This document shows, one piece after another, positions 9,277-48,102 of a stretch of 64,000 nt of DNA. Made by a program: the position numbers and the translations under genes. This DNA comes from Bacillus sp. EAC (GTDB lineage: Bacteria > Bacillota > Bacilli > Bacillales > Bacillaceae_G), in NCBI RefSeq assembly GCF_002156875.1, contig NZ_NCSY01000001.1:124001-188000 (forward strand), in the 5' to 3' direction. The first letter of the stretch is position 1. Each line of letters opens with the position of its first letter. The notes below the pieces were generated by a model. That model did no database searches. It saw nothing but the letters and a program-made list of their open reading frames with translations, and had not been told where the DNA came from.

Positions 9277-10188
9277 CTATCTCTTTTCAAGTTTTACTTC
9301 TAAAAGTAATTCTTCAATTTTTTCTCTATTAGTTAAGTCAGCTGAAAAGGCTGTTGCACTTCCAGTTGCTACACCAGTTTTAAATGAATCTTCATAAGAA
9401 TTTGTTTTTATAAACGTTCCTAAAAATCCAGCAACAAGTGAGTCACCTGCTCCAACTGAATTAATTACTTTGCCTTTAGGTACATTTGCTACATAAACAT
9501 CATTTTCAGTTAATAGGATTGCACCATCGCCTGCTAAAGAAATTCCAACGTTTTTTGCACCCATTTCAATTAATTTTTTTCCATATGGAATAGCTTGCTC
9601 GATTGATGTAATTGATATATCAAACAATTCTCCTAATTCATGATGATTAGGTTTAATGAAAAATGGTTTATGTCTAACAACATCTAATAATGCCTTTCCA
9701 CTTGCATCCACTACAATATTTATACCTTTTTCATTAGCCCATTTTGTAAGTCTTTCGTATAGATTCTGAGGTAGAGAACTTGGAATATTTCCTGCCAAAA
9801 CCAAATAATCATCTTTTTTAATTTGTTTGAGCTTATTTAAGAATTGATCTAATTTTTCATCTGAAATAGTTGGTCCTTGCCCATTTATTTCTGTCTCACT
9901 TTGAGATTTCAATTTAATATTTATACGAGTATCTTCATCAACTTTTACAAAATCAGTAAGGACTTTTTCTTTCACCAATTCATTGACAATGTATTCTCCA
10001 GTAAACCCACCGACAAAACCTAAAGCAATACTTTCGACACCTAATCGCTTTAAAACTCTTGAGACATTGATGCCTTTACCACCTGGGAATTTATTGTCAT
10101 TCTTCATTCTATTTATCTCACCAATTTGAAAGTGATTTACTTCCACGATGTAATCGATTGAAGGGTTTAGAGTTACAGTATAAATCAT
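9277..10188 (-). CDS. fruK: 1-phosphofructokinase
   Basis: PfkB/ribokinase-family kinase converting fructose 1-phosphate to fructose 1,6-bisphosphate with ATP. It has 303 aa. The N-terminus MIYTVTLNPSIDYIVEV and the block FPGGKGINVSRVLKRLG are characteristic, and the catalytic signature NSVGAGDSLVAGFLG, with the base Asp, is near residue 248. Its ATG overlaps the fruR stop codon (TAATG arrangement), with AAAGG upstream, so translation is probably coupled. The C-terminal end abuts the fruA start. Confidence 0.93.
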   Translation of the reverse strand: MIYTVTLNPSIDYIVEVNHFQIGEINRMKNDNKFPGGKGINVSRVLKRLGVESIALGFVGGFTGEYIVNELVKEKVLTDFVKVDEDTRINIKLKSQSETEINGQGPTISDEKLDQFLNKLKQIKKDDYLVLAGNIPSSLPQNLYERLTKWANEKGINIVVDASGKALLDVVRHKPFFIKPNHHELGELFDISITSIEQAIPYGKKLIEMGAKNVGISLAGDGAILLTENDVYVANVPKGKVINSVGAGDSLVAGFLGTFIKTNSYEDSFKTGVATGSATAFSADLTNREKIEELLLEVKLEKR

Positions 10189-31497: not shown

Positions 31498-32544
31498 TTA
31501 AGAAAGTTTACCTACAAAATTCATCTTTTCTAATTCAAATGAATCAAAGGCACCATCTAATATTTTCCTGACATCTAGAAGTGTATCTTGTAAGCTAACT
31601 GAGGCACCCTTTATGCCTGTAAAAGTTTCTGCTACATAAAAAGGTTGCGTTAAATATGCTTCGAGTAATTCACCACGTTTAAATGTAGTTTTTTCATTTT
31701 CTGGTAAAGAGTCTAATCCATGAATTGATACGAATGAACGTAATTCTCGATATCTACGAAGTAATTTTTGAGAAGATTTTTGTATTATATTGTGATTTTG
31801 ATCTTGATGAATATCTTCTGATACAGTGGATGTTGAGTAGATTGGATTGATTGCTGGGTACTTATGTCTTGCAGCTAAATCTGCATCGAACTGCCATAGT
31901 GTTTCTAGTGGACCATATGGAATATCCTCATCAACTGCTCCACCTTTTACATCAACTAGGAAAGTAGTTACATTTTCAATTCCTATATCAGATAATTTTT
32001 GATGAAGTTGATTAATATCACCACTTATTACATTCGAACGATCTGCTGCAAATGCCACATCTATATTATTACCAGCTCTAGCTATTATTTCATATACTTC
32101 GTCAATAGATGTACATACATGTTTAACATCATCTATAATATCATCAATCTCGGGGTATCTACCTTCGGGTCTTAATAAAATTGTCAAATATGAATCGTTT
32201 TTTAGTTTATAAAACAGTTCAGCCAGGACAACTAATTGTCCCATACCAGGTCTAGCAATTAGTCCTACAGTACCACCCTTTACTAACGGAGCAAATAAGT
32301 CTAACGTTTTAATACCAGTTTCGATCATTTCGATTTTCTCCCCTCTAATAATAAGTTCGTCTAAAGTACATTCAGCAAGTGTTGCAAGTGCAACTAATGT
32401 TCTCACTTCAGATCTGCCAATCGATATTTTACCAGTACATAGATTTGAAACAGTCGCTGCACGAAGTCCGATAGATTTTGCTGCACTCGTTAAATTCGGT
32501 ACTCTCCGACGTAATAATCCAACGTTTAAGCGTAAATTTTCCAT
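31498..32544 (-). CDS. Helix-turn-helix domain fused to an F1-ATPase beta-like pseudo-ATPase
   Basis: 348 aa in two parts. Residues 1 to about 68 look like a Cro/XRE-type helix-turn-helix (LTSAAKSIGLRAATVSNLCTG). From residue 71 the protein follows ATP synthase subunit beta: IEMIETGIKTLDLFAPLVKGG (standard beta: ETGIKVVDLLAPY), PAINPIYSTS (230-239), LRRYRELRSFVSIHGLDSL (262-280) and YLTQPFYVAETFTG (297-310). The P-loop is degenerate: GGAGVGKT becomes ARPGMGQL (97-104), losing the catalytic Lys and Thr. The beta-barrel domain is replaced by the HTH and the core is shorter (beta is about 470 aa). GAGGAGGGG precedes the ATG; the gene is alone. Probably a nucleotide-sensing or structural regulator; function unknown. 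Confidence 0.82.
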   Translation of the reverse strand: MENLRLNVGLLRRRVPNLTSAAKSIGLRAATVSNLCTGKISIGRSEVRTLVALATLAECTLDELIIRGEKIEMIETGIKTLDLFAPLVKGGTVGLIARPGMGQLVVLAELFYKLKNDSYLTILLRPEGRYPEIDDIIDDVKHVCTSIDEVYEIIARAGNNIDVAFAADRSNVISGDINQLHQKLSDIGIENVTTFLVDVKGGAVDEDIPYGPLETLWQFDADLAARHKYPAINPIYSTSTVSEDIHQDQNHNIIQKSSQKLLRRYRELRSFVSIHGLDSLPENEKTTFKRGELLEAYLTQPFYVAETFTGIKGASVSLQDTLLDVRKILDGAFDSFELEKMNFVGKLS

Positions 32545-32596
32545 ATTTCCCCTCCTCTTTTTTAATTTATTCTAATTCTCAGAAAAAATCAACATT

Positions 32597-32638
32597 TTTT
32601 ACTCTTAAAAGTAAAATTAATTACGTTTTAGTGTAAAA
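32597..32638. promoter_or_regulatory. Inverted repeats before the HTH/F1-beta fusion gene
   Basis: TTTTACT (32597-32603) / AGTAAAA (32610-32616), then TTTTA-GTG-TAAAA (32626-32638). They lie 53-95 bases upstream of the gene start, just upstream of a TTGATT/ATAAAT-like promoter on the minus strand. The arms share TTTTA(C)/(G)TAAAA, so two copies of one operator are possible. Confidence 0.4.
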
Positions 32639-32648
32639 ATACATAAAA

Positions 32649-32680
32649 AATGCGATATTCCAATTGAAATACCGCAATTT
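32649..32680 (-). terminator. Terminator of the HAD gene
   Basis: TGCGATATT / AATACCGCA (one mismatch) with A/T runs on both sides, behind the HAD gene ending at 32688. Confidence 0.65.
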
Positions 32681-33523: not shown

Positions 33524-33967
33524 ATGGATATTTATCCTCCATATAGAGTTTTCCCTGGTCAACCCGGTGGATTTCCTGGTCAACCTGGTGGATTTCCCGG
33601 TCAACCTGGTGGATTTCCTGGTCAACCTGGTGGATTTCCTGGTCAACCAGGCGGTTTTCCCGGTCAACCTGGTGGGTTTCCCGGTCAACCTGGTGGATTT
33701 CCTGGACAGTCAGGTGGTCAACCTACATCTCCACCACCTTCGTTCACACCTTCTCAACCATCAGCAACTTTATTTGCAGTAGATCCTGGGGCAATTGCAG
33801 GATGCAGATTTAGAAATACGTTTGTTTGGTTAAATAACGGGGAATCATTCTGGTTTTTCCCTACTTTTATAGGTCGCCATTCAGTTGCAGGTTATAGATG
33901 GTTTGGATTCTTCTGGTCATATTTTGGTATAGATACAAATCGAATACGCTCATTTACATGCTTCTAA
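33524..33967 (+). CDS. Spore-surface-like protein with eight FPGQPGG repeats
   Basis: 147 aa. After MDIYPPYRV come eight tandem heptads FPGQPGG (residues 10-65; the last is FPGQSGG), a Pro/Ser linker, and a C-terminal domain from about residue 92 ([42 protein letters not shown]) rich in aromatics with two Cys. Proteins with this C-terminal domain are common in bacilli, often behind low-complexity repeats, and are mis-named transporter; a coat or surface role fits better but is inference. No signal peptide. AAAGGAG before the ATG. Confidence 0.75.
33551..33718 (+). repeat. Coding tandem repeat, 8 x 21 bp
   Basis: Units of TTYCCYGGTCAACCNGGHGG-like sequence encoding FPGQPGG. Units differ mainly at third codon positions, so the array is maintained as protein but is also prone to unit gain or loss. 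Confidence 0.85.
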
Positions 33968-46410: not shown

Positions 46411-48102
46411 CTAAATATAGTCTTCTATTTTTTTCATTTCCATTTTTAATTCCGAAACAATTAAATCAATACAACCATCATCGAATGGCGAAGTAAGTTT
46501 TGCTTCTTTTAATATTGATAAAAAAGATTTACTACCACCAGTCTTACAAATTTGGAGAAATTTTGAGATAGCCAATTCCATATTAGTGTTTGATTCAGTA
46601 AATATTTGGAATGCACAAATTTGAGCTAGTGCATAATCAATAAAATAAAAAGGTGTTTTATAAATTAACGTTTGCTGTTGCCAGTATCCACCTCTCTCTA
46701 AAAAGTCATTTCCTTCATAAATTCTAAAAGGTAGATATAGCTTTTCAATTCTTCTCCATTCCTTTTTTCGAGCACTTGGACTAATATCAGGATTTTCATA
46801 GATAAAATGCTGAAATTCATCGATTGCTACACAATAAATCATCCAATCAATCGCACCAATCAAATGCGAATATTTATATTTATGAACATCCTCTTTAAAG
46901 ACCAAATCTAATGATTGCCAAATTAATAATTCCATGCTCATTGAATGAATTTCGCAAGCTTCATATGTTGGATAATGGTAGTCAACTAATTCAATCTGTC
47001 TACTTGAGTACAATTGAAAAGCATGACCGGCCTCATGTGAAAATACACGAACGTCATCAGAGGACCCGTTAAAATTCGCGAAAATAAAAGGTGATTTATA
47101 TAGGGGTAAAAATGAACAATATCCCGCTCTTGCCTTGTTCTCACGTGTATCAAGATCTACTAAATTGTTCGAAATCATAAAATTATAAAATTCATCAGTT
47201 TCATTAGAAAGATTTCTAAATATCTGTTGAAATTGTTGTACAATCCATTTTGAATCTCCTTTTGGACTCGGGCTACCATCTTGAAATAAATAGTCCAAAT
47301 CATAATAAGTTAACGTAGTAAGGTTTGTACGAATTCTTTGATTTTCGCGTATTTCATTTAAAAATGGTACGAGTTTTTCTTTTATTTCTTTTCGAAAATT
47401 CAACAAATGAGATGGATTAAAATCTACTCTAAGCATGCGGTCATAACCTAATGCGATATAATTTTTATATCCTAATTTTTTTGCTATTTCAGTACGCTTT
47501 TTAACTAAACCATTAAAAATAGTATCTAGTTCTTCCTCATTATCCATATAAAAATCGTATTTTGCAGTTAATGCTTTTTTCCTTGTCTCTCTATTGCTGT
47601 TATATGCGTAAGCTTGAAGTTGTGCAAGATTTTTATTCTCATTATCAAATTTAATTTTTGCCGAAGCTATGAGTTTTGTATACTTACTTACTAATTTATT
47701 TTCAATAACTAAGTCTTCTAAAACATCTTTTGAAATTACTTTAGATTGAAGCTCAGCCAACGAAAAAAACTGTTTCCCCCATCTAGCTTCGAGTTGTTTA
47801 CGATAAATCGAAGTGTTTAAAATCTCAAAATAATCCCTAAGAATATTTAAGTAAATTGGATACATTTCATCAAAATATTTCTGTTCTTCAAGAAAGAAAG
47901 CATTTTTTGTATCTCGAGTAAATTGGATCGCAGCTAAATGCATCATACTTTCAAAGAATGACCTAATTGAATTGATTTTTTGTATGTAATGATTCAGTTC
48001 TTCTATTTTTTTCGAATGTTTAAATTGATTTAATACATGTTCGATTTCTTGTGTTATTTTTTCTATATCTGGTCTTACATATTGAAATGATTCAAATTTC
48101 AT
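46411..48102 (-). CDS. M3-family oligoendopeptidase (PepF-like)
   Basis: 563-aa zinc metallopeptidase. Active site HEAGHAFQLYSS about residue 350 and the downstream Glu in YEACEIHSMSMELL. Cleaves short peptides in the cytoplasm; no signal peptide. GGAGGTGGG before the ATG. A MITE copy lies behind it; no partner gene. Confidence 0.88.
   Translation of the reverse strand: MKFESFQYVRPDIEKITQEIEHVLNQFKHSKKIEELNHYIQKINSIRSFFESMMHLAAIQFTRDTKNAFFLEEQKYFDEMYPIYLNILRDYFEILNTSIYRKQLEARWGKQFFSLAELQSKVISKDVLEDLVIENKLVSKYTKLIASAKIKFDNENKNLAQLQAYAYNSNRETRKKALTAKYDFYMDNEEELDTIFNGLVKKRTEIAKKLGYKNYIALGYDRMLRVDFNPSHLLNFRKEIKEKLVPFLNEIRENQRIRTNLTTLTYYDLDYLFQDGSPSPKGDSKWIVQQFQQIFRNLSNETDEFYNFMISNNLVDLDTRENKARAGYCSFLPLYKSPFIFANFNGSSDDVRVFSHEAGHAFQLYSSRQIELVDYHYPTYEACEIHSMSMELLIWQSLDLVFKEDVHKYKYSHLIGAIDWMIYCVAIDEFQHFIYENPDISPSARKKEWRRIEKLYLPFRIYEGNDFLERGGYWQQQTLIYKTPFYFIDYALAQICAFQIFTESNTNMELAISKFLQICKTGGSKSFLSILKEAKLTSPFDDGCIDLIVSELKMEMKKIEDYI

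Follow-up and report, generated by a model that had tools for sequence, protein, structure and literature searches.

Gene and domain architecture

The window, a stretch of 64,000 nucleotides from Bacillus sp. EAC, contains a gene on the minus strand (31498..32544, ATG start) that encodes an HTH/F1-beta-like protein of 348 aa. Residues 71 to 348 (31501..32334, minus strand), recognized by Pfam, TIGR01039, phmmer, and hhalign, form an F1-beta-like body in which the nucleotide-binding core is shortened and the C-terminal helical domain is retained. Residues 1 to 70 (32335..32544, minus strand) form a Cro/C1-like HTH that replaces the beta-barrel domain.

The original prediction that residues 71 to 348 follow the beta subunit of ATP synthase was borne out by profile comparison. 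A 38-member family alignment searched with hhalign against seven AtpD sequences of the same genus gave a 99.8% match (E = 1.2e-27, 273 columns, 29% identity), which starts at query residue 69 and is collinear with F1-beta across residues 71 to 348. Solved F1-beta chains were matched with E values of 8e-30 by single sequence (phmmer) and 8e-37 by profile. The atpD model TIGR01039 is the best NCBIfam family (E = 9.3e-36), yet its score of 123.6 bits is far below the cutoff of 462.85; in a Pfam scan, the window copy scored 31.3 bits with both PF00006 (cutoff, 29.5) and PF22919 (cutoff, 24.7). Approximately 50 core residues are absent relative to AtpD, including the part that carries the catalytic Glu, and the DELSEED region is eroded (DSLPENE), as had been claimed.

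Replacement of the barrel by an HTH is likewise supported by the family: HTH_26 is matched at E ≤ 0.01 by 31 of its 38 members (best E value, 1.3e-5), while the window copy is subthreshold (17.6 versus the Pfam cutoff of 22). The HTH region alone had no useful match among solved structures.

The gene is free-standing and outside the atp operon, in agreement with the original prediction, as it lies on contig C11 and atpD on contig C21. A terminator-like hairpin (32651..32676, minus strand) that belongs to the HAD gene upstream suggests that the regulator gene forms a separate transcription unit. Neighborhoods vary across 38 loci, some of which end at contig ends, and no conserved operon partner was found among them; the commonest neighbor family, response regulators, occurs at no more than 12 of 38. 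An open reading frame with a collagen-like GFPGQPG repeat (33524-33967) adjoins the HAD gene in the window and is retained in five other Gottfriedia-type loci.

Active-site residues

Active-site positions were compared across 90 family rows, with residues numbered as in the organism's own AtpD. The P-loop, GGAGVGKT in AtpD, is ARPGMGQL in the HTH/F1-beta protein (residues 97 to 105, ARPGMGQLV; 32230..32256, minus strand). Lys164 is replaced by Gln in 90/90 rows (Q103 in the window copy) and Thr165 is Thr in only one; no ortholog with an intact P-loop is present among the 90 sequences. At the column that corresponds to the catalytic Glu190, 65/90 rows have Gly and 7/90 have Glu; loss of this residue is less sure, because the column sits in a gapped stretch.

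Other parts of the nucleotide site are conserved. The Walker B Asp252 is Asp in 88/90 rows, and residues 229 to 308 (31621..31860, minus strand) include the retained adenine-pocket positions Y229, F302, A305, and F308. In the family alignment, the Tyr341 column is always aromatic (64 Tyr and 26 Phe), Phe414 is Phe in 89/90 rows, Ala417 is Ala in 87/90, and the Phe420 column is Phe or Tyr in 84/90 (66 and 18, respectively); these four residues line the adenine pocket in F1. Substitution of the P-loop Lys and loss of the catalytic Glu region indicate that the body would be unable to hydrolyze ATP, and an adenine-like ligand may still bind. Retention of the adenine-pocket side chains makes nucleotide-like sensing plausible and suggests that the body is most likely a nonhydrolyzing ligand sensor and oligomerization platform.

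Distribution, selection, and origin

Full-length copies are found in 8 of 13 genomes of the genus and 8 of 19 genomes of the family. In an ortholog search, which had been proposed with the original prediction, 88 of 397 genomes of the order had matches at E ≤ 1e-40. Near-full-length copies are present in 86 of them; the matches in G245 and G260 are fragments that contain a stop. The matches represent 31 of 135 sampled genera, or 29 without the two fragment-only genomes. A draw from the class gave matches in 19/398 genomes (including two partial matches and some genomes also drawn for the order), and a draw from the phylum gave 3/398, two of which belong to the order. Named carriers (37 loci) include Gottfriedia, Fredinandcohnia, Sporosarcina, Mesobacillus, Neobacillus, Lysinibacillus, Ureibacillus, Bhargavaea, and Oceanobacillus, and one copy, annotated as "hypothetical protein," is located on a Paenibacillus plasmid. 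No description of such a protein was found in an open-literature search of titles and abstract beginnings, the scope of which included few subscription papers.

The gene is under purifying selection and represents a living gene family. Pairwise dN/dS ratios among five Gottfriedia-type copies are 0.06 to 0.11, and those for the block containing the dead P-loop (residues 71 to 115) are 0 to 0.07 in the 8 pairs, of 10, for which they were computable. Broken remnants of the regulator gene are present in G011, G245, G260, and G655 (L223, L221, L222, and L112), in the last case as a second piece. Such remnants would suit a pseudogene derived by decay from ATP synthase beta, its HTH being due to chance, but this explanation is rejected by the occurrence of the same architecture in 86/397 genomes of the order, by dN/dS ratios of about 0.1, and by fixation of the Lys-to-Gln change in 90/90 sequences, and we regard it as extremely improbable.

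Many genera cohere in the gene tree, but Mesobacillus and Neobacillus do not, and a single clade (100/100) unites Oceanobacillus, Pseudogracilibacillus, and Bacillus sp. EB01 with Ureibacillus, Lysinibacillus, and Bhargavaea. These mixed clades, together with the changing neighborhoods, suggest transfer of the gene between lineages. A phage origin was rejected: no relative was found in viral_contigs, and the 19 phage-record matches are AtpD-like, none spanning 80% of the query. These AtpD-like genes (H21 to H39) are in phage-labeled records, some of which are named as bacterial contigs, and are probably host sequence. A defense system was also considered and dropped, as the best PADLOC match (Cas8b, E = 0.036) was judged to be due to chance.

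Operator arrays upstream of the regulator gene

Two palindromic operators precede the gene in the window on the minus strand: TTACTTTTAAGAGTAA (gene strand; 32599..32614, 20.5 bits) and, 22 bp from it, TTACACTAAAACGTAA (gene strand; 32621..32636, 18.5 bits). A putative promoter, TTGATT-17-TAAATT (32564..32592, minus strand), lies directly downstream of them; it is weak and comes from a crude promoter pick, and a general promoter scan gave 10 promoter-like sites versus 10.2 in shuffled sequence, i.e., no excess.

The operators belong to a pattern that is general in the family. Upstream regions of 150 bp from 38 loci (the 37 named loci and the window) contain 56 exact TTAC-N8-GTAA palindromes, versus 0.27 expected from shuffles, and the enrichment is confined to a spacer of 8, with 0 or 1 TTAC/GTAA pairs at each spacer of 4 to 7 and 9 to 12. 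With one mismatch allowed and regions extended to 180 bp, at least one site is found in 37/38 regions and two or more in 36/38, and 52 of 68 spacings between sites are 21 to 23 bp. There are two exceptions. The upstream region of L048 ends early at a contig end, and in L069 (Lederbergia) the operator pair is approximately 600 bp upstream, near a TetR gene (L069:4362-4425). L069 and G349 share this layout, with the regulator on one side of the pair, hundreds of bases away, and a TetR-like gene on the other.

A matrix built from the sites of the 38 regions was run on 81 distinct upstream regions, which remained after removal of duplicates from 125 loci. Zero, one, two, three, and four sites were found in 2, 3, 23, 45, and 8 regions, respectively, and 114 of 137 spacings were 21 to 23 bp; shuffled sequences gave 0.012 sites per region. 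Among the 43 regions not used to build the matrix, some of which are close relatives of training regions, at least one site was found in 42 and at least two in 40. In the single held-out region that lacks a site (L099), the regulator copy follows a formamidase and a hydrolase gene, and a site stands at the head of the row. The Paenibacillus plasmid copy carries a pair of sites at a distance of 22 bp. Tandem palindrome arrays, usually of three sites approximately 22 bp apart, are typical of the region upstream of the HTH/F1-beta gene.

The final two sites fall on TTGCnT-17-TACnnT, read as the -35 and -10 boxes, in many genera, and this placement favors autorepression. Of the 81 regions, 42 have an operator overlapped by the promoter pick at -35, 60 at -10, and 35 at both, counts that stand without a shuffled control. 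In the window copy, both operators are just upstream of the weak putative -35, so that repression is not evident there. The regulator would control its own promoter, probably as a repressor.

The arrays could be bound instead by another regulator, the HTH/F1-beta gene being one of its targets. This reading would have to accommodate arrays that stay with the gene in many different neighborhoods and down to 45 to 50% identity. In addition, a strict two-site pattern, searched in 80 genomes (74 carriers and 6 noncarriers), occurred at 12 places, all 12 of which are directly upstream of an HTH/F1-beta gene, and the reversed control gave none. Given these results, control by a different protein appears improbable.

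Candidate target genes

A relaxed pattern with fixed spacing and up to two mismatches, searched in 80 carriers, had matches in 56 of them; most lay at the HTH/F1-beta gene, nine were elsewhere, and the reversed control gave three. Five of the nine arrays precede M3 oligoendopeptidase genes (G244, G372, G206, G181, and G021). Four of the encoded proteins are full length, score above the TIGR02289 cutoff, and contain HExxH; the fifth is a broken 117-aa open reading frame, and a Pfam scan matched one of the five candidates. The probability of five or more M3 genes among nine random places is 1.3e-13, on the assumption of 4 M3 genes in 4,000 and ignoring relatedness. Two further arrays are at formamidase genes, one unlinked to the regulator (G181) and one at a formamidase-regulator pair (G277), and another is at an alpha/beta hydrolase gene (G208). 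The ninth (G349, L268:2695-2757) is flanked by the regulator and a TetR gene, either of which it may serve. Where the start codon is sure, target sites are at -107 to -34, in the same 22/45-bp register as at the regulator gene itself; distances for the G181 formamidase, the G372 peptidase, and the G001 hydrolase were left out of account. A three-site array also precedes an ABC transporter gene pair in G208 (L185:3016-3104).

Formamidase matches were found in 26 of 80 genomes (40 carriers and 40 noncarriers). Those of at least 67% identity are in G706, G480, G181, and G218, all of them carriers, and operators accompany 4/4, either before the formamidase gene or before a row shared with the regulator. 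No operators stand in front of the other 22 (47 to 53% identity); at L197, among these distant loci, two weak site matches lie away from the start. In Pseudogracilibacillus (L065), the regulator and a formamidase (72%) are in a row behind an array, and the G277 formamidase, which is 54% identical, also has sites.

Single sites are not above the reversed control and were not by themselves counted as targets: 16 nonself sites were found in 40 carriers and 5 in 40 noncarriers, versus 25 and 20 for the reversed pattern, i.e., no enrichment. The 16 comprise 7 inside genes, 4 at promoters named by other evidence, and 5 that are intergenic and nonrecurring. Elsewhere in the 393 kb of named loci, three sites score 15 bits or more. 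In the window, no such site precedes the M3 oligoendopeptidase gene (46426-48102, TIGR02289), and a site at 9293 (18.9 bits) lies at the junction of two fructose operon genes and was dropped.

Targets differ between lineages, and in most genomes searched the array at the regulator gene is the only one found. One genome (G051) encodes a second body without an HTH, 40% identical and with an open frame (L217:1425-2328), behind three sites of 18.9, 16.2, and 10.3 bits. Of two other short matches, one (G707) is cut by a contig end and the other (G684) is a truncated copy. The existence of the HTH-less paralog hints at either an independent role for the body or a place for it in a mixed oligomer. 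The lone arrays and this paralog would both fit a protein whose HTH merely tunes its own amount and whose body works elsewhere, as a beta-like decoy, an assembly factor, or an inhibitor of ATP synthase or another RecA-like ring. However, the HTH-less paralog with an array is a single case among 397 genomes, several genera have arrays at promoters of M3, formamidase, and hydrolase genes, and no array place of the strict or relaxed search is at an atp operon, nor was any other link to that operon seen. That the main work of the body lies elsewhere is therefore considered unlikely. The suggestions of the original prediction that the protein mimics beta in a hexamer with AtpA or reads the energy state of the cell gained no direct support; the predicted targets are peptidase, amidase, and hydrolase genes and not atp operons.

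Proposed mechanism

There is good computational support for regarding the protein as a DNA-binding regulator with a dead F1-beta as its base: its own and other promoters have palindromic operators, the gene is under purifying selection, and intact P-loops are absent (0/90). Homology, the dead P-loop, selection, the operators, and the candidate target promoters are computational results; from them we infer operator binding by the protein, the sign of control, the ligand, and the oligomer. The HTH/F1-beta protein is probably a one-component transcription factor that acts at tandem operators, senses and oligomerizes through its dead ATPase, and controls itself and peptide/amide hydrolases. Its N-terminal XRE-type HTH would bind tandem 16-bp palindromes (TTAC-N8-GTAA) approximately 22 bp apart, and its F1-beta-derived body would serve as the nonhydrolyzing sensor on which the protein assembles. 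Besides autoregulation, it would control, lineage by lineage, the promoters of M3 oligoendopeptidase, formamidase, and alpha/beta hydrolase genes, probably by repression.

The geometry of the arrays permits a more specific and more tentative model. Three operators provide six half-sites that follow one another at approximately 10 to 12 bp, close to one turn of DNA, on one face, an arrangement that would fit the six HTHs of an F1-like hexamer. The protein might accordingly form an F1-beta-like ring, either a hexamer or an open lock washer, in which six HTH heads replace the beta-barrel crown and sit as three dimers on three operators. Binding of an adenine-type ligand at the six dead sites would open or close the ring and thereby switch peptide/amide hydrolase genes. 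We consider this arrangement possible but rather less likely than the general scheme of a one-component regulator.

Relation to known systems

The body resembles AtpD (TIGR01039) in its collinearity, in its identity of 29%, and in the retained Walker B Asp and adenine-pocket positions. It differs in the absent P-loop Lys, the lost catalytic Glu stretch, the HTH in place of the beta-barrel, a score far below the atpD cutoff, and a location outside the atp operon. Rho also combines a RecA/F1-like core with an N-terminal nucleic acid-binding domain; it is an active RNA-dependent ATPase without the F1 C-terminal domain. The HTH/F1-beta protein shares the order of a RecA/F1-like core behind an N-terminal nucleic acid-binding domain, but its ATPase is dead and its head is an HTH.

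MocR/GabR-type regulators consist of a PLP enzyme fold with a winged HTH. In one published account (PMC4944035), they are described as an HTH joined to an enzyme-homologous domain that is taken as the sensor. The HTH/F1-beta protein likewise joins an HTH to a domain homologous to an enzyme, but the fold is that of F1-beta and the HTH is Cro/C1-like. With XRE/Cro-C1 regulators (HTH_26), it shares the HTH type (31/38 members) and palindromic operators at its own promoter; unlike them, it has an F1-beta body and phased operator arrays, usually of three sites, and the HTH of the window copy is below the Pfam cutoff. An HTH, an enzyme-derived domain, and predicted sites at trans targets agree with the plan of one-component regulators with an enzyme-derived sensor. 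Judged by its sequence, the putative one-component regulator composed of an HTH and F1-beta is a new architecture.

We know of no earlier case in which the catalytic subunit of a rotary ATPase gave rise to a transcription factor. The HTH/F1-beta protein would be the first, kept as a pseudo-ATPase in many Bacillales. With operators and target promoters defined, tests are simple, and three questions become testable: the use of a dead F1 site, the reuse of F1-type rings for reading DNA, and the control of peptide/amide hydrolases in the genera that carry the gene.
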